DNA of 29,295 nt from a virus. Shown piece after piece: positions 5,093 through 28,709 of this stretch; the stretch's first letter is position 1; each line of letters opens with the position of its first letter. The DNA lies in IMG/VR virus record IMGVR_UViG_3300009129_000068, positions 1-29,295 of that record, one strand, 5' to 3'. The notes beneath the pieces are model-generated. The model ran no database searches. It was not told the DNA's origin and worked only from the letters and a program-made list of their open reading frames with translations. The translations under genes were made by a program, and so were the position numbers.

Positions 5093-6939
5093 ATAAGATT
5101 AAAAAGCATTTTGAAGACTTTGTGGACGCAACAGAGGACGCTAGATCTGCAGCGGAAAAGCGCAGAGACTACCGAGATCTCAAACAGTGGACAGGCGAAG
5201 AGAAGCAGAAGCTTAGCGCTAGAGATCAAGCGGCTATTGTATTTGATCAGTTTAGCAAGAAGGTTGACGCTATTACAGGTCTTGAGGTTCAGCGCAGAAC
5301 CGACCCCAAAGCTTTGCCAGTTCACCCTAAAGACGAAAAGGCGGCCGAGGTTATTACTGACGGCTTACGGTTTGTTGAGTCAAAATCATTTCTTGATGAG
5401 TCTGCTACTGATGTATTCGAGGATAAACTTGTAGAGGGTTACGGTGGCGTAATAACTGAGGTAGAGCGCAAAGGTGAAGAGTTTGTCATTAGCCCTAAGC
5501 GCATACCATGGGATCGAATATATTTTGACCCACATTCAAGAGAAAAAGACTTTAGTGATTCATCCTACTTCGGTATTACGTTATGGATGGATCTAGAGGA
5601 TGCCATAGCTCTCAATGAGGAAAAGCGCGATGAGATAGAAAGCGCATTTCATGAGGCTGAATTCTCTGATGAGACTTTTGAGGATAGGCCTAAGTACTGG
5701 ATAAACACAGAGCGTAAACGAATTCGAGTGAATCAGGAGTTCTATTTACACAAAGGCGTTTGGCATGAGGTGTTCTACTCGGGTGATATCGAGGTGATTG
5801 AGTCCAAGCCCTCACCGTATGAAGACGAAGACGGCGAGCCGATGTGCCCTATTGAGCTTGAATGTGACTTTGTTGACCGTGAGAACGCTCGCTGGGGGTA
5901 TATGGAGCGTTTGATTGATGTTCAGGATGAGATAAACCACCGCCGGTCTAAAGGGCTTTACATGCTCTCAAGTAAGACGGTTATAGCTGATCGTGGGGCG
6001 TTTGGCAGTACCCCAATCGAAAAGGTCTTACAGCAGTTTAGAAAAGGCTTCACATTCATTGAGAAGCTTAAGGGCACAGAGGTTGAGATAGACAACCAGC
6101 AAGACCTAGGGCAAAGCCAGCTAGCATTTTATCAAGACGCTCAGAATGCTATGGATTCCGTAGGTATTAACCCAGAGTTATCAGGCTCAACTGATACCGC
6201 TATTAGTGGACGTGCATTTATTGCAAGACAGCAGGGCGGCATGGTTGAGCTTGCCCGTATTTTCTCTAATCATTCAGCCTGGAAGCGTAGAGTATACAGA
6301 CAGATATGGTTAAGAATGCGCCAGTTCTGGACTGAAGAAAAATGGGTAAGGGTTACGGATAATGAAAACGCATTGCGGTTCGTAGGCATTAATGTACCTA
6401 TTACCATGGTGGAGAAGCAGCTAGAAGAATCTGCAGGTATGGACATTAATAAGATTCGAGAGCGCAATCCTGATGCCGTAGACGCATTCATTAAACAAGA
6501 GATACAAGCCAACCCAGCACTAGGACAAGTAGTTGAAAAGCGCAACGATGTTAAGCAGCTTGAGATGGATATTATTTTAGAAGAAGTGCCAGACACAGCA
6601 ATCATCCAGCAGGAGCAATTTGAGATGCTGGCTAATTTGGCGGGTACTCGTGGCGATCCGCAAATGTTTGAGGCATTGCTTTCCTTGTCTAATATGCCAA
6701 ACAAAGACGCCGTTTTAGAGAAGTTCAAACCAGATGAGCAGGCGCAACAACAGCAGGCACAGGCTCAGCAGCAGGTTATGGAGATGGAAACAGCAGATAA
6801 AATGGCAGATATAGCCAAGAAGCAGGCGGAAGCACAGAAGACAGTAGCAGAGATACCGTTAGTGGAGGCTCAAACAAAAGACGAATTGGCCTCTGCAGTG
6901 GAGAGAGTTGGAAAAACAAGCACAATGGGTTTACAATAA
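5080..6939 (+). CDS. Portal protein, P22-like
   Basis: The 619-residue protein begins inside the terminase end and matches the P22-type portal pattern: a helical N-terminus (RDYRDLKQWTGEEKQKL), ITGLEVQRRTD near residue 67, a wing segment with PKRIPWDRIYFDPHSREKDF, and a mid-protein helix ending in SGRAFIARQQGG. The C-terminus from about residue 550 is a Gln/Ala-rich helix, corresponding to the barrel-type tail of P22 portals. It forms the dodecameric ring at one vertex through which DNA enters and leaves. Somewhat shorter than P22 gp1 (725 aa). The gene order terminase-portal-scaffold-capsid supports the call. Confidence 0.92.
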   Translation: MASIDKIKKHFEDFVDATEDARSAAEKRRDYRDLKQWTGEEKQKLSARDQAAIVFDQFSKKVDAITGLEVQRRTDPKALPVHPKDEKAAEVITDGLRFVESKSFLDESATDVFEDKLVEGYGGVITEVERKGEEFVISPKRIPWDRIYFDPHSREKDFSDSSYFGITLWMDLEDAIALNEEKRDEIESAFHEAEFSDETFEDRPKYWINTERKRIRVNQEFYLHKGVWHEVFYSGDIEVIESKPSPYEDEDGEPMCPIELECDFVDRENARWGYMERLIDVQDEINHRRSKGLYMLSSKTVIADRGAFGSTPIEKVLQQFRKGFTFIEKLKGTEVEIDNQQDLGQSQLAFYQDAQNAMDSVGINPELSGSTDTAISGRAFIARQQGGMVELARIFSNHSAWKRRVYRQIWLRMRQFWTEEKWVRVTDNENALRFVGINVPITMVEKQLEESAGMDINKIRERNPDAVDAFIKQEIQANPALGQVVEKRNDVKQLEMDIILEEVPDTAIIQQEQFEMLANLAGTRGDPQMFEALLSLSNMPNKDAVLEKFKPDEQAQQQQAQAQQQVMEMETADKMADIAKKQAEAQKTVAEIPLVEAQTKDELASAVERVGKTSTMGLQ

Positions 6940-19222: not shown

Positions 19223-19768
19223 TCAGAACGGTATATCATCATCAAAGTTATCCATCCCAACACCCATTGCATTAGCTTGTGCTTGGGCTGGAATTTGAAC
19301 TGCTTGAGCTTGACGCATTTGTGCTTGCTGCTGATGCGCTCCCATAGGTTGCCCTTGTGGCGGTGCTTGATGGCCTGCAGGTTGTGCTTGTGGTGCGTAG
19401 CCTTGGTTATTCTGCTGACCGTTTCCCGAATCACGACTGTCTAGCATTTGCATTTCGCTAGCCACAATCTCAGTCGTGTATCGATCTTGTCCGCTTTGGT
19501 CTTGCCATTTGCGGGTAGTGAACTTACCTTCAATATAAACCTTGGAACCCTTTTTTAAATAATCGCCAATTATTTCAGCAAGCCGACCAAAAGCGGAAAT
19601 ATTAACCCACTCAGTTTTTTCTACTATTTGTCCGGTCTGCTTATCTTTGTAGTCATCACCGCAAGCTATCGAAAATGATGCGCAAGCTTTACCGCTTTGT
19701 GTGTATCTTATTTCGGGGTCTTTACCTAACCGGCCTATACCCATCCATTTATTTAAGTCTTTACTCAT
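19223..19768 (-). CDS. ssb: Single-stranded DNA-binding protein
   Basis: The protein has the SSB OB-fold sequence: [47 protein letters not shown], then a strand ending [20 protein letters not shown]. The C-terminal half is a Gln/Gly/Ala-rich linker and the last residues are DDDIPF, the acidic tip used to recruit partners such as recombination and helicase proteins. At 181 aa it is close to E. coli SSB (178 aa). It protects single strands made by the exonuclease and during replication; it is 3 bases from that gene. AAGGTG precedes the start. Confidence 0.95.
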
Positions 19769-19771
19769 TTA

Positions 19772-20392
19772 TTAACACCTTATCTGTTTTTCACATTCAT
19801 CTATAAGCCGCTTAAATTCATCTAGGCGACTATCTATCATTTTGAATTCGTCCTGTACTTCTGTTTTGTTTATCCTCTTTATAAAAAGCTGTTTATCTTC
19901 TGGGTAGGATGAGCAAAAGTTAATAAAATCTATCCATTCTCTACCCGTGAATTTGAGATTACCTATACACTGCCATTTGTGCTCGCTTGGCAATACACCC
20001 TTTTTAACTCTGTTAAAATGAACAGATGGAATAGAGCTTTTTATCTCACCTAAGCCGCAATCGCCAGCGTTAAAATCAGGTGAGCATCCTATCCAATCGT
20101 TACAATAAAACCCCCCGTTTTGAGTGTCTGTAAAGGTAAGCTGTTCATATAAGCGCCTAGCTATTGGCTCCTCTTCGTGGCCTCGCTCCGTATGCTGATT
20201 TGAAAAACCGCTAGGTATAGGCTTGCCTGTAATTCGCTCTATTGCGATGTCTATAGCATACTTCTTTGCAGGTTCGCCAAAGGGCTTGCCATAGTTGGCC
20301 ATGACGACACCTAGCTTTGAACTCGTAAGCCTTCCAGCTCTGAGTTCAAGCCATTCATCTGTGTTTTGATCAATATCAATAAACTTAAGCAT
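19772..20392 (-). CDS. YqaJ/lambda-type 5'-3' exonuclease
   Basis: The 206-residue protein is a PD-(D/E)xK exonuclease. A Q/W-containing N-terminus, LELRAGRLTSSKLG, is followed by ERGHEEEPIAR (residues 69-79, Glu at 75), GCSPDF (Asp106) and LGEIKSS (Glu116, Lys118), then HKWQCIGNLKFT (Gln141). These match the metal and lysine ligands of lambda exonuclease. It would digest one strand from duplex ends to make 3' overhangs for annealing. Together with SSB and the neighbouring 169-aa protein it makes a Red-like recombination set. Start ATG 20392 overlaps the upstream gene by 8 bases. Confidence 0.88.
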   Translation of the reverse strand: MLKFIDIDQNTDEWLELRAGRLTSSKLGVVMANYGKPFGEPAKKYAIDIAIERITGKPIPSGFSNQHTERGHEEEPIARRLYEQLTFTDTQNGGFYCNDWIGCSPDFNAGDCGLGEIKSSIPSVHFNRVKKGVLPSEHKWQCIGNLKFTGREWIDFINFCSSYPEDKQLFIKRINKTEVQDEFKMIDSRLDEFKRLIDECEKQIRC

Positions 20393-23477: not shown

Positions 23478-23629
23478 TGGCTGCTTTCGGCTGGGGGGTT
23501 GACGGGTATGGAAGATTCCACGCGCACAAGCGAGGAAGTCTTAATATTATTTTTTGCGGGCTTCCTGGTGTGTCTGGTTGGGAGCTTGCAGTAATTCTTG
23601 AAGATCAGGATAAAGAAAATGACACTTAA
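23477..23629 (+). CDS. Hypothetical small protein, 50 aa
   Basis: The frame starts in the TAATG overlap with AGGGGGAG upstream. It encodes MAAFGWGVDGYGRFHAHKRG, then SLNIIFCGLPGVSGWELAVI, a Gly/aromatic-rich protein with a short hydrophobic strand. The end overlaps the HTH gene by 11 bases. No family recognised. Confidence 0.45.
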   Translation: MAAFGWGVDGYGRFHAHKRGSLNIIFCGLPGVSGWELAVILEDQDKENDT

Positions 23630-23804
23630 ACAATACATAGAAGCGCGCGGAATCAATCAAAACAAGCTAGCTATAGAATTAGGTATGTCCAGGCAGTTAA
23701 TAGGCCACAAGATCAAACATGGCTATTTAGTGGGGGATTTAGACGGGGTTATGATTATGTATAACCCTAGTGAGATTAGAGAGCTAAAACGACTTGAAAA
23801 ATAG
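23619..23804 (+). CDS. Cro/CI-type helix-turn-helix protein, 61 aa
   Basis: I use ATG 23619 (MTLKQYIEARGINQNKLAIE) rather than the upstream 23598 codon. Residues 12-36 form an HTH: NQNKLAIELGMSRQLIGHKI, then KHGYLVGDL. The rest is a small strand-rich end. It lies within a short operon behind a promoter with operator-like half-sites and just ahead of the large RNA. It may be a self-regulating repressor or a second Cro-like factor. Confidence 0.65.
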   Translation: MTLKQYIEARGINQNKLAIELGMSRQLIGHKIKHGYLVGDLDGVMIMYNPSEIRELKRLEK

Positions 23805-23821
23805 ATAAAACAAGGTAGTAT
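23794..23821 (+). promoter_or_regulatory. Promoter for the large non-coding RNA
   Basis: -35 TTGAAA at 23794-23799, 16-base spacer, -10 TAGTAT at 23816-23821. The expected start, about 7 bases on, is near 23828, exactly the first base of the TAAGCCGG helix. The -35 lies in the end of the HTH gene. Confidence 0.7.
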
Positions 23822-23827
23822 TAGAGG

Positions 23828-24262
23828 TAAGCCGGTTCACACCCGGTACAGATAAGAATCAAATGTAAGAAATCTATATCCGGCCCGGCTTAGGGTAATT
23901 ATAGCGTAACACCTCATTTCATTTCAAATCTGTATCGTGAATCGGCTCAACTATCCGGTAATTCCGTATAGTTCGTCGTTAGATCGACTGTAGTTCGACG
24001 TAAACCAACTTCTGCGGCCTTCTCAGGCGTTAAAACGAGAAACTAACCCGTAAGTTCAAGAGCTAACCAAACACCCTCAAGGAATAGCAGCAATTAGGCT
24101 AGAAGGGTGACAGCGAAAGTAGGTAAAAGGGATTACGGACTTCACTTGTCCGCCTGACTGCATTGGGAGAGACTATCTCGTAAAGCTATGAGTATCAGAA
24201 GAGCTAAGAAGGCACTATCTGGTACCTACCATAGTAGGGAGAAGTGGAAAGTTGTGCACGAT
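23828..24262 (+). ncRNA. Large structured RNA candidate (about 435 nt)
   Basis: The 480-base gap from 23805 to 24284 has no coding frame of 60 aa or more on either strand. Many helices can be drawn: TAAGCCGG 23828-23835 with CCGGCTTA 23885-23892; a nested CCGG pair and AGAT/ATCT; GTCG 23975-23978 with CGAC 23985-23988; TTCT 24020-24023 with AGAA 24038-24041 around CGTT/AACG; CACCCT 24072-24077 with AGGGTG 24104-24109; CGGAC 24136-24140 with GTCCG 24148-24152; GAGA 24167-24170 with TCTC 24176-24179; CCTAC 24225-24229 with GTAGG 24234-24238; ATCGTG 23934-23939 may pair with CACGAT 24257-24262. It is not tmRNA, RNase P or an obvious group I/II intron. GOLLD/ROOL-like large phage RNAs are the nearest known concept; no match was verified. 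The 3' end is unclear. Confidence 0.65.
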
Positions 24263-24284
24263 TAAAAAATATACAGAGGATAAC

Positions 24285-24605
24285 ATGGGATATTACACAA
24301 AGCATAATCTAGAGATTAAGAAAGGTTGTACCGGACTTATTAGCGAATTAAGAGAGTGGTGCGAAGATGCAAGGGACTCTTTTGATGATGATGGGAAATG
24401 TGAGGAAGAGACTAAATGGTATAGCCATAGAGAGGATTTAATCTCGTTTTCTAAAAACCATCCAGAGGCAATATTTTTACTATGCGGCCAGGGCGAGGAA
24501 TCCGGCGATATTTGGAGGGAATATTATAAGGGCGGAAGGATACAGGTGTGTAGAGCGGTTATATCGTTTGATGATTTTGACGAGAGTAGGCTTAAAAATG
24601 GTTAG
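24285..24605 (+). CDS. Hypothetical phage protein, 106 aa
   Basis: I use ATG 24285 with AGAGGA 5 bases upstream, not the TTG at 24252. The sequence MGYYTKHNLEIKKGC, then KWYSHREDLISFSKNHPEAI and ESGDIWREYYKGGRIQVCRA, matches a family of small phage proteins I have seen but whose function is unknown (WYSHEEDL, then a GEGEE-GD-W turn). It is a compact alpha/beta protein. The next gene starts inside its end. Confidence 0.7.
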   Translation: MGYYTKHNLEIKKGCTGLISELREWCEDARDSFDDDGKCEEETKWYSHREDLISFSKNHPEAIFLLCGQGEESGDIWREYYKGGRIQVCRAVISFDDFDESRLKNG

Positions 24606-25390: not shown

Positions 25391-26029
25391 ATGAAGACAC
25401 AAGTTATTATGAAGCGCGAAATAATGGGTATGGAGGTTCGCCAAAATCATAAAACCAAGATGTTTAATGCTAACGACCTACACAAGATAGGCAATAAGCA
25501 CAGAGAGGTTTTAGGGTTGGGGCCAAAGCAGCTTGCACAGTATTTCGCATTAGACAGCACTGAAGAGCTTATAAGGGAGGTTTGTTTAACTGAGGTTCTA
25601 AAGCTTGAGGACGTTAAAAAATCCTCTAGGGGTAGTAACGGGGGAACATGGGTAAACCCTATTATATTTGTGGATCTTGCTATGTGGTACTCGCCAAAAT
25701 TAAGAGTTCACATTATTAAATGGGTTCTTGATGGGTTGATGGAATTAAGGGATGAAAGCGGTGATTCCTTTAAAGCTATGAATAAAACACTTTCTAAAAA
25801 CTTCCCCGATGAGTTTTCAAGCCCTCTATCTTTTATCAAGGTTGCCAAGGGTATAGCGGCGGCTTGCAAGGTGGGAGAAGGTCCTGATAAGTGGCAAAAG
25901 GCGACAAAAGAGCAATTAAGCTTAAGGGATGCCATTCAAAAAAACATAGAGATTATAGCGGACTTATGCCCAAATTCAGGCGAGTGTTTGAATAAGGCAA
26001 TTGAGAAAGCTAGGTTTAGCACACAGTAA
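25391..26029 (+). CDS. KilA-N domain DNA-binding protein
   Basis: The first 120 residues match the KilA-N pattern: KTKMFNANDLHKIGN, a helix around residue 50, RGSNGGTWVNPIIFVDLAM (about residues 80-100), then WYSPKLRVHIIKWVLDG. The TWVNP-DLAMW segment is the conserved core found in P1 KilA and other phage and virus proteins. The C-terminal 90 residues (SFIKVAKGIAAACKVGEGPD; IEIIADLCPNSGECL) are a separate helical domain. KilA-N proteins bind DNA and often act as phage regulators or host-lethal factors. Has its own promoter. Confidence 0.85.
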   Translation: MKTQVIMKREIMGMEVRQNHKTKMFNANDLHKIGNKHREVLGLGPKQLAQYFALDSTEELIREVCLTEVLKLEDVKKSSRGSNGGTWVNPIIFVDLAMWYSPKLRVHIIKWVLDGLMELRDESGDSFKAMNKTLSKNFPDEFSSPLSFIKVAKGIAAACKVGEGPDKWQKATKEQLSLRDAIQKNIEIIADLCPNSGECLNKAIEKARFSTQ

Positions 26030-26045
26030 AGAAAGGGGGTGATAA

Positions 26046-26390
26046 GTGAGAGATATAAAATTCAGGGCTTGGGATTCCGCTATTCATGAGCTTTACAAGG
26101 TAAGAGCTTTGACGTGGGATAGATCGATCAACTTAGCGCCAGGCCAAGACGCAATAATGCAATATACGGGCCTTAAGGATAAAAACGGCGTAGAGATCTA
26201 TGAGGGCGATATTGTAATTAAGGATGGCGAGCCTAGAGAGGTTATTTTTTCAGAAAAGGCCGCTAAGTTTTGTGTGAGAAAGCCTAGCAAGCAATGGCAT
26301 GGTGTCGTAAATAAGGTTTATTCACTTATTGGGTGCGAGGTAATCGGCAATATATACGAAAACCCAGAGCTATTGGAGGATAAAGAATAA
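26046..26390 (+). CDS. YopX family protein
   Basis: GTG 26046 follows a strong GGGGGTGA (26036-26043). The 114-residue sequence starts MRDIKFRAWD, then contains IMQYTGLKDKNGVEIYEGDI and ends with VIGNIYENPELL, the standard YopX marks (a KFRAWD start, QYTGLKDKNG-EIYEGDI, and GNIYENPELL). YopX is widespread in phages; it forms a decamer-like ring in structures, but its role is unknown. Its stop touches the next start (TAATG). Confidence 0.92.
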   Translation: MRDIKFRAWDSAIHELYKVRALTWDRSINLAPGQDAIMQYTGLKDKNGVEIYEGDIVIKDGEPREVIFSEKAAKFCVRKPSKQWHGVVNKVYSLIGCEVIGNIYENPELLEDKE

Positions 26391-26662
26391 TGGTAACTAG
26401 GTTCAGCCCAGGTGTTAAATACTCTACAGAAATGGGCGTTTATTCGCCTAGTATGAACGTTAGATCAGGAGGGAATTACACCCTATACGACGACTACGCC
26501 AAGCTAGAAGCAGAGAATAAGGATTTAAGGGCTTACGCAAATAATATAATTAAATGCCTTAATGAGTATGAAGATTCGCAAACAAGCGAAGAGTACAAGC
26601 AAACATTGGATGATTTTCATCATGGTGTTTTTCTTTTATCTGAAGGGATAGCTAAGCTATAA
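26390..26662 (+). CDS. Hypothetical phage protein, 90 aa
   Basis: The protein has a Tyr-rich N-terminal part (FSPGVKYSTEMGVYSPSMNV) followed by YTLYDDYAKLEAENKDLRAY, a short coiled-coil start typical of small ORFs of this type, and a helical end. It is coupled to yopX by a TAATG overlap. Function unknown. Confidence 0.6.
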   Translation: MVTRFSPGVKYSTEMGVYSPSMNVRSGGNYTLYDDYAKLEAENKDLRAYANNIIKCLNEYEDSQTSEEYKQTLDDFHHGVFLLSEGIAKL

Positions 26663-26670
26663 TAACCAAT

Positions 26671-26764
26671 GCGGCTAGATGGGAGTAGCTACCCATTGAA
26701 AAAGGCTTCCTTTAGTGCCTCGCCGCAAAAACTAAACTAAAGGCTAAAAACTAAAGGGCAAAAA
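26671..26764 (+). promoter_or_regulatory. Structured leader with possible pseudoknot before the replication gene
   Basis: GCGGC 26671-26675 pairs with GCCGC 26722-26726 and encloses two hairpins: ATGGG/CCCAT (26679-26683, 26692-26696) and AGGC/GCCT (26703-26706, 26717-26720). The loop of the second contains CCTTTAGT (26709-26716), complementary over 8 bases to ACTAAAGG at 26736-26743 and at 26750-26757. The second copy includes the AAAGGG ribosome site of ATG 26765. Pairing could hide that site. No known riboswitch class was recognised. Confidence 0.5.
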
Positions 26765-27427
26765 ATGCACTACTATCAGTTTAATATTGCTGATTATCGC
26801 AAAGATACGCAGCACCTGTCACTTCTTGAGCATGCTATTTATCGCTCACTTTTAGATACTTATTACCTTGAAGAATCTCCATTATGCAAGGATGATGCGA
26901 AGCTTATGCGAACGCATAGCATACGCACTTCTGAAGAAAAAGAAGCCTTTAAAAACGTTATATCAGACTTTTTTACTTTTGAAGATGACGGTTATCATCA
27001 CAAAAAATGCGATGAAGAATTAAACAAAATATACGAAAAATCAGAAAAAGCTCGATTATCGGCTAAAAAACGATGGGAAAAGAAAGCGAACGCAATGCGA
27101 ACGCATAGCGAAGGCAGTGCGAACGGTATGCTACCTAATACCCAAGACCCAATACCTAATACCCAAGAACCTAAAAAGAATAAAGCTAAGCGCTTTACTC
27201 CGCCAACGGTTGACGAGGTTGCTGCTTACTGCCGCCAAAGAAACAACGGTATTGATCCTCAAAAATTCGTCGATCATTACAAAACCAACGATTGGAAGCG
27301 AGGCAATACAAAAATTAAAGACTGGCAAGCATGCGTTAGGACTTGGGAGAAAAGGTCAAACACTGAGCAACCTAGGCAGCGTCCAATGCTTTCAGACATC
27401 ATGAAGGAGCAGCGCAATGGAATATAA
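26765..27427 (+). CDS. DUF1376 replication-initiation-like protein
   Basis: The N-terminus MHYYQFNIADYRKDTQHLSL, then EHAIYRSLLDTYYLEESPL, is the DUF1376 (YdaU-type) domain of phage replication proteins, a winged-helix DNA-binding module. The middle (about residues 100-145) is a low-complexity linker with repeated MRTHS and NTQ-P segments, encoded by iteron-like repeats. The C-terminal part, TPPTVDEVAAYCRQRNNGID, then FVDHYKTNDWKRGNTKIKDW, is the replisome-organiser type that recruits helicase. It lies 11 bases inside the DnaB gene. It should act like lambda O. Confidence 0.85.
   Translation: MHYYQFNIADYRKDTQHLSLLEHAIYRSLLDTYYLEESPLCKDDAKLMRTHSIRTSEEKEAFKNVISDFFTFEDDGYHHKKCDEELNKIYEKSEKARLSAKKRWEKKANAMRTHSEGSANGMLPNTQDPIPNTQEPKKNKAKRFTPPTVDEVAAYCRQRNNGIDPQKFVDHYKTNDWKRGNTKIKDWQACVRTWEKRSNTEQPRQRPMLSDIMKEQRNGI
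26906..27168 (+). repeat. Iteron-like repeats, possible replication origin
   Basis: GCGAACG occurs at 26908-26914, 27086-27092, 27097-27103 and 27119-27125; two copies are the dyad ATGCGAACGCAT (26906-26917 and 27095-27106). Next comes a 21-base-period repeat, ACCTAATACCCAAGA at 27133-27147 and 27154-27168, and then an A-rich stretch (about 27170-27190). Iterons in the initiator gene followed by AT-rich DNA are the arrangement of the lambda O-gene origin. Confidence 0.5.
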
Positions 27428-28709
27428 AGAAACAGAGCAGAGCGTTATCAGTGGTCAGATGATCATAGGCGTATTGCTTAAAAATCCATCAAAGATAACG
27501 GAATGCAATCTTACGCCGCTAATGTTCTGGAATCAGACTGACGGCCTGATTTTTGGCGTTATGCTTGAAATGAACTCAGCTAATCAGCCAATTGATGTTA
27601 TCACCGTAACGGAAAAGCTTTTAGAGAAAACCGGTAAAGACTACCTACAGACCTTGATGGCTTACGCTACGAGTGGTGGAGGAACAGAGAAAAATATTAA
27701 GGCTTACTGCGAGATAATCACAGAGGCGCACAGAAAGACCCAGGCTAGAGAAATAGCAAACCTATTGATAGAGTCATTAAACGAACCAAACGCCGTAGAG
27801 ATCGCCATACAAGCCCTTATGGGGCTAACTAGTGAAAACCGTAATTATGAATATGATATTAATTCTGCTTGTAAGATAGCCCTTACAGCAATTAACGAAC
27901 GGGTTGAGAATAAGGATAAGCTGCCAGGCGTTAACACTGGATTAGGAAAGTTAAACGATTCTTTAGGCGGCTTTCACAACACTGATTTAGTTGTGATAGG
28001 CGCTAGGCCAGCAATGGGTAAAACGGCGCTTATACTTAATATGATTATTCGTGCCAATGCCAAATGCGGATTTATAAGTGCTGAGCAAGGAGTTTCACAG
28101 ATTGTGCAGCGATGTATGGCTATTGCTGGTGGTGTTAACTCTTCAAACATGAGGACTGGACACCTAACAGAGGATGATTGGAATTTTTTGCAGGCTGGAG
28201 CAACAAAAATTAAATCTCATCCTGGTTGCTGGTTTTACGATAAGAGCGCGCCCACTATCGAAGAGGTTGAAAGCATCGCCAGGCGGTGGAAGTACGAATA
28301 CGATATAGACGCTTTTTATATTGATTACCTTCAAAGGCTCTCAGTTGCGCCAGGAAAGACAAAAACGGAATCAGTAAGCGAGAATACCAGAAGGCTAAAA
28401 GACCTTGCTAGAGAGCTTGAGATACCTGTTATCGTACTAGCTCAGGTTAAGCGTGATGTGGAAAACCGCAATGATAAACGGCCCAATATGGGGGATATTT
28501 CAGATTCTTCTGAAGTGGAAAAAGAGGCTGACGTTGTGATGATGATGTATAGGGATGAATACTACAACCCTGACACCATGAGCGCTGGGATTATCGAATT
28601 GAACATAGAGAAGAACCGACACGGCCCGACGGGCTGCGTTCCAACCAAGTGGAGCAGTCAGATAATGAGAATTTCAGACCTCACGGAGTATACAGATGGA
28701 TACCACTAG
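27417..28709 (+). CDS. dnaB: Replicative DNA helicase, DnaB type
   Basis: The 430-residue protein has the DnaB N-terminal helical domain (about residues 1-115; LLKNPSKITECNLTPLMFW), a linker, and a RecA-like C-terminus. Walker A is GARPAMGKT at 195-203 and Walker B FYIDYLQ at 301-307. The DnaB motif SSEVEKEADVVMMMYRDEYY and KNRHGPTG near the end are also present. It is slightly shorter than E. coli DnaB (471 aa). Loaded by the DUF1376 protein, it would drive the phage fork. It replaces the P-type helicase loader used by lambda. Confidence 0.95.
   Translation: MEYKETEQSVISGQMIIGVLLKNPSKITECNLTPLMFWNQTDGLIFGVMLEMNSANQPIDVITVTEKLLEKTGKDYLQTLMAYATSGGGTEKNIKAYCEIITEAHRKTQAREIANLLIESLNEPNAVEIAIQALMGLTSENRNYEYDINSACKIALTAINERVENKDKLPGVNTGLGKLNDSLGGFHNTDLVVIGARPAMGKTALILNMIIRANAKCGFISAEQGVSQIVQRCMAIAGGVNSSNMRTGHLTEDDWNFLQAGATKIKSHPGCWFYDKSAPTIEEVESIARRWKYEYDIDAFYIDYLQRLSVAPGKTKTESVSENTRRLKDLARELEIPVIVLAQVKRDVENRNDKRPNMGDISDSSEVEKEADVVMMMYRDEYYNPDTMSAGIIELNIEKNRHGPTGCVPTKWSSQIMRISDLTEYTDGYH

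Follow-up and report, generated by a model that had tools for sequence, protein, structure and literature searches.

The window, meaning the whole 29,295-base stretch of DNA that was analysed, carries the tailed-phage genes for terminase, portal, major head protein and head closure, together with one leftward and one rightward early cluster. These clusters encode SSB and a YqaJ-type exonuclease, both identified by eye (19223-20392), and KilA-N, a primosomal protein and a DnaB-like helicase (25391-28709). Within the rightward early cluster there is an intercistronic region without genes (23805-24284, + strand), with the primosomal and DnaB-like genes following 2.5-3.6 kb further downstream. It is preceded on the + strand by a small ORF of 63 aa (23613-23804), HTH-like by eye, which had no match in Pfam and PHROG searches and is 83% identical over 59 residues in a related phage. 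The + strand ORF that follows (24285-24605) belongs to phrog_6306, of unknown function, and the related phage has a different neighbour at this place. Relatives of phrog_6306 occur in otherwise very different phages, including those of Cellulophaga, Vibrio and Streptomyces.

The absence of coding potential in 23805-24284 was consistent across ORF, periodicity and protein searches. The longest stop-to-stop frame in any of the six frames has 35 aa, the 3-base periodicity reaches 1.17, compared to 4.65 for the median coding window, and the three + strand frames had no match in a phage protein search at E 1. A reading of this DNA made earlier from the letters alone (the sequence-only reading) had pointed out 480 bases without a 60-aa frame, and these results confirm it. 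Counted as sequence without an ORF of at least 60 aa, the longest such region of the record has 447 nt, ending at a TTG-started extension at 24252, followed by regions of 266, 163 and 162 nt.

Folding of the whole 480 nt gave a z of -2.2 against shuffles. In the 5' part, the predicted folds and their pair list contain a long-range helix on the + strand that closes a 74-nt loop, here called domain A (23831-23946). The predicted helix has 19 pairs, with a 10-bp half (23831-23840/23937-23946) and a 9-bp half (23845-23853/23928-23936) separated by a 4-nt bulge (23841-23844), and its irregular pairs are two G-U and no A-C. Domain A, folded as 129 nt (23824-23952), had a z of -4.8 on the + strand, with none of the 500 shuffles as stable, and -2.8 on the - strand. 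It also ranked first among 449 + strand windows of 130 nt in this phage (z -6.2), in a ranking on a 65-base grid with 30 shuffles per window where one window was placed at the domain start, which flatters domain A; across tests its z was about -5 to -6. The 3' part (23990-24284, + strand) is likewise ORF-free and folds at the shuffle level, with a z of -1.0 and 81 of 500 shuffles equally stable for the ~340 nt of 23944-24284. The short direct repeats of the region are irregularly spaced.

The sequence-only reading had listed at least seven helices, which appear in the predicted fold; however, only the 5' domain beats shuffles. Its perfect 8-bp helix (23828-23835/23885-23892, + strand) does exist as an inverted repeat, I3, but is absent from the minimum-energy fold, because it uses bases of the 19-bp helix, which that reading had missed; the two are mutually exclusive and the 8-bp helix is much weaker. 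These statistics support a domain of ~120 nt rather than an ornate RNA of 480 nt. The earlier description of the region as non-coding with RNA structure is thus supported on the + strand, also by a comparably strong domain in the syntenic relative, and domain A is a real yet modest structured RNA; a giant RNA machine is unsupported.

A Rfam scan of the whole window at the gathering score had no match to ROOL (RF03087), GOLLD (RF02032), group I intron, RNase P or tmRNA, and ARAGORN found neither tRNA nor tmRNA in the window; the sequence-only reading had seen no intron core, tmRNA or RNase P signature. At E values up to 10, 23700-24400 gave just chance-level matches to unrelated families, and the relative's region had no Rfam match either. 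Targeted searches for ROOL and GOLLD were also empty; these carry little weight, since the control genomes gave no signal. Extensive secondary structure of the kind that covaries over about 400-800 nt in ROOL and GOLLD was not seen, only ~120 nt being more stable than shuffles. The proposal of a large, ornate RNA, either a GOLLD/ROOL relative or a new giant class, is not supported, in view of the lack of a Rfam match and of a nearby tRNA and of the 3' parts folding at the shuffle level.

A promoter-like site, TTGAAA-16-TAGTAT (23794-23821, + strand, 9 of 12 consensus positions), lies immediately before domain A. It had been read as a promoter, and the motif is indeed present, but such sites occur at chance level, with five found in the region against 5.2 expected. 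In the syntenic relative, no counterpart was flagged just upstream of the corresponding domain. A leftward promoter-like site, TTGAAA-18-TATAAT (23898-23927, - strand, 11 of 12), found by consensus match only, is located inside domain A; it points leftward, antisense to the small upstream gene (23613-23804), and recalls the position of lambda OOP.

The syntenic relative, locus L236 of the 37.1-kb record G417, was located via the protein of the upstream gene (23613-23804). Its early block shares with the window the SSB (50% identity), two small leftward proteins (86% and 74%), a DUF1289 protein (77%) and the 63-aa protein (83%). Behind the latter come a gene for an HNH endonuclease (Pfam HNH_3) and then a long hairpin with six T, after which L236 is ORF-free on the + strand until 6556, which leaves ~630 nt after the terminator-like hairpin, compared to 480 nt in the window. 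The hairpin, at L236:5810-5925, is a terminator-like long inverted repeat ending in six T that may be an attenuator, and a shorter hairpin, GGGCT...AGCCC, overlaps it. Elsewhere in the relative, its longest stretch without a 60-aa ORF (1876 bases, L320:15888-17763, G417 33888-35763) is possibly a decayed or frame-shifted gene.

The region in its full length had no homologue in DNA searches. A segment of 38 nt (23946-23983, + strand) matches L236:6160-6197 with 84% identity in blastn (E 5e-5; E 2e-6 for the record). Just 5' of this segment, L236 has a perfect long-range helix of 14 bp (6037-6050/6130-6143, one pair being G-U), continued by 6 bp beyond a U-U. The fold of L236 6025-6200 had a z of -5.6, and that of 6030-6155 a z of -5.2 (0 of 300 shuffles as stable) against -2.0 on the opposite strand, while the domain window ranked first of 569 in G417 (z -6.2) on a grid also positioned on the domain. 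The 240 nt 3' of the domain are unstructured (z 0.1). Accordingly, in both phages the strongest + strand structure of the genome is found directly 5' of the shared 38-nt segment, and the three irregular pairs in the outer helices of the two phages are all G-U, with no A-C.

The helix arms of the two phages have little sequence in common. In an alignment of the cores (23844-23853/23928-23937 and L236 6042-6051/6129-6138), nine pairs persist, with none broken among them and two maintained by two-sided changes (G-U to U-A and C-G to U-A), and the tenth aligned pair is a U-U in L236. Covariation is unprovable with two sequences, and this pairing evidence is suggestive only. Of 3000 shuffles, 42 had helix arms as similar as those observed, as did 118 out of 6000 background windows. 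In a purpose-written simultaneous fold and alignment, the pair of domains beats shuffles (0 of 60 reach it), but separation from unrelated, equally stable decoys is not clean (6/150 and 13/150 as good). Because similar arms recur in shuffles and background and some decoys give as good a joint fold, the case for homology of the helix is largely positional; for the domain it is made mainly by synteny, by rank and by the shared segment next to it. Pair counts from MAFFT/RNAalifold for the two sequences were discarded, since that alignment puts the 3' arm of domain A in the wrong place.

Searches beyond this relative were extended to several collections. A covariance model of domain A alone (R1) matched only the window itself in ~2.35 Mb of loci, blastn against phages and plasmids had no match for the region, and the loci of portal-protein relatives (80 viral and 52 genome loci) had no DNA match at E <=0.001 in the records searched. 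The KilA-N relatives have little in common with the window beyond the KilA-N gene. In 369 gammaproteobacterial genomes, the window region matched only at a palindrome, in four rhuM genes, and the relative's region had no match. A region of the partly related record G009 (L109:9060-9370) was considered as a positional analogue and rejected, as it has no common sequence and different neighbouring genes; it is gene-free and moderately folded (z -2.1), closed by the long inverted repeat AGACGCTCTGCC/GGCAGAGCGTCT, and has no Rfam match. The motif GGTAATTCCG-N6-YTCGTCGTTAGA, together with the 63-aa protein at 23613, could serve as a handle for relatives of the early region.

These observations bear on the possibility of a stand-alone phage ncRNA of a new class, ~450-630 nt long and acting in trans on host or phage, where domain A would be the 5' domain and the hairpin behind it plus the next 300 nt the body. 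The similar or longer gene-free stretch of the relative (480 compared to ~630 nt), the common 38-nt segment behind domain A and the promoter-like site immediately before it are in line with this possibility, as is the joint fold of the 3' parts, which is slightly above shuffles yet marginal (3 of 60 reach the score). However, the 3' parts have shuffle-level stability in both phages (z -1.0 and 0.1), the promoter-like site is no more than chance would give and lacks a counterpart in the relative, and Rfam has no match, so that such an RNA is considered rather unlikely. The full form of the proposal, a new trans-acting class of ~450-630 nt that would be early-expressed and fast-evolving and would combine a 5' domain built on a long-range helix, the hairpin of the palindrome and a conserved UCGUCGUUAGA segment, is unlikely in much the same degree or slightly more so; as only one relative was found, a new RNA class keeps some probability.

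The shared segment contains an imperfect palindrome, AACTATCCGG-TAATT-CCGTATAGTT (23949-23973, + strand), which can form a hairpin and is a one-mismatch copy of a palindrome found in phages and in rhuM. The parent palindrome is AACTATCCGG(A/T)AATTCCGGATAGTT, with a one-base variant in a few contigs; it was not found printed in the literature examined. In the gammaproteobacterial set it lies inside rhuM in four of the 369 genomes (L173-L176), where it encodes TIRKFRIV, and an exact scan found it in 59 viral contigs (L177-L235), mostly outside the RhuM frame, in several frames and in non-coding DNA. About a quarter of these 59 contigs carry, within 170 bases, a second palindrome of the same layout, AACCTGTAAG-N5-CTTACAAGTT or nearly so, several of the contigs with both being near-duplicates. 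One copy (L180:8950-9110) is flanked by arms, CATAACGATTGAGTT...GTTAGCCG, that by eye resemble those of an integron attC site, and it seems to sit as an insert in the variable loop of such a site. Between the window and L236, the hairpin has a single pair changed on both sides and one mismatch that is repaired, and two of its pairs are broken; the hairpin of L236 is another palindrome, GTTCGG-TAATT-CCGAAC.

The palindrome resembles a phage element of mobile or operator type, and the hairpin may be a DNA-level element that happens to fall within the transcript; since the palindrome is scattered in other DNA, conservation of the hairpin alone is no argument for RNA. The region as a whole could then be a DNA element, either a replication or single-strand initiation site or an operator, with 23949-23973 as the binding site and the folding being that of DNA or a by-product. 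Near-copies in coding and non-coding DNA of many phages, sometimes beside the second palindrome, fit such an element, together with the different palindrome at the same place in the relative and the primosomal and DnaB-like genes 2.5-3.6 kb downstream. This explanation is nonetheless judged quite unlikely, given that folding is strand-asymmetric, the irregular pairs are G-U rather than A-C, the spacing of the direct repeats is irregular, and 23949-23973 is the sole palindrome in the window with a 10+5+10 layout and at most one mismatch. One frame of the palindrome reads STIR*FRIVRR*, which is RhuM-like with stops and would suit a coding sequence in decay, or recent junk DNA in which an inverted repeat arose by chance. 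A rhuM pseudogene was rejected, because the palindrome alone matches, with no further RhuM-like stretch in the region and no phage-protein match of the + strand frames. Decay in general is highly improbable, since the palindrome is found elsewhere in many frames and in non-coding DNA, and the top-ranking structure of this genome has a counterpart at the syntenic position in a second phage.

Here it is tentatively proposed that the early rightward transcript carries an RNA element in this region. The most likely candidate is a two-turn helix of the RNase III type that would act in cis between cistrons, a choice that falls short of firm confidence. In this model, 23805-24284 would be an untranslated part of the rightward early transcript between the HTH-like gene and a variable block of genes, and its 5' part a selected RNA structure, in which strands ~75-100 nt apart would close into an interrupted helix of ~20 bp, or two A-form turns. 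This helix would serve in cis as a double-stranded cleavage site for RNase III, parting the regulator message from the downstream genes. Transcription and cleavage are predicted steps, and any role of the hairpin or of the 300-nt tail is putative. A helix of ~20 bp in both phages, although most of the sequence differs, fits a double-strand site of the RNase III type; against it, such a site does not need a 300-nt untranslated tail, and the shared 38-nt segment has its own DNA-level explanation in the palindrome.

With the upstream gene conserved and the downstream genes different, the element is not the leader of, or tied to, one downstream gene. The same arrangement of conserved upstream and variable downstream genes in an early operon would suit a put-like cis RNA, comparable to that of HK022, which would modify RNA polymerase so that transcription passes terminators and enters the variable early genes. 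The put RNAs known so far are structured early-operon leaders (PMC9378689), and in the relative a long hairpin with six T lies ~110 nt upstream. This possibility is nevertheless improbable, as domain A is larger than the ~70-nt put (PMC9378689), has a single arch and sits far into the gene cluster, and no + strand terminator was flagged downstream, the relative's terminator being upstream.

As an RNase III-type intercistronic processing site, the element would be ordinary in kind, although undescribed in these phages; if it acted in trans, it would extend the short list of large phage RNAs by a class. A comparably strong, strand-specific domain at the same operon position in two phages with little common sequence would cleanly exemplify a phage RNA element that is missed by sequence searches yet within reach of synteny plus folding.

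Like ROOL and GOLLD, the region is phage-borne, ORF-free, hundreds of nt long and of unknown function. It differs from them in having no covariance-model match, a single structured domain and no neighbouring tRNA, although proximity to tRNA genes is usual for these RNAs and not obligatory (PMC12286853). The put RNAs, structured leaders of early operons of ~70 nt with two stem-loops near early promoters (PMC9378689), are similar to the region in that HK022 put, too, is structured and lies in the early part of the genome of a temperate-type phage, and the element of the window is possibly on an early transcript. By description, and not by sequence comparison, the region is set apart from HK022 put by a predicted fold in which a single long-range helix closes a 74-nt loop and a small hairpin comes next, midway in the gene cluster. 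This fold does not contain two adjacent stem-loops within ~70 nt near an early promoter. RNase III processing sites occur in phage early mRNAs, such as the intercistronic sites of T7. Unlike the T7 sites, the region has a 74-nt loop and at least 300 nt of untranslated sequence behind it. Like them, it is intercistronic in an early cluster, with a predicted interrupted helix of ~20 bp and pairing kept over sequence, so that about two turns of double-stranded RNA are predicted between genes in both phages (19 bp with a 4-nt bulge in the window, and 14 + 6 bp around a U-U in L236).
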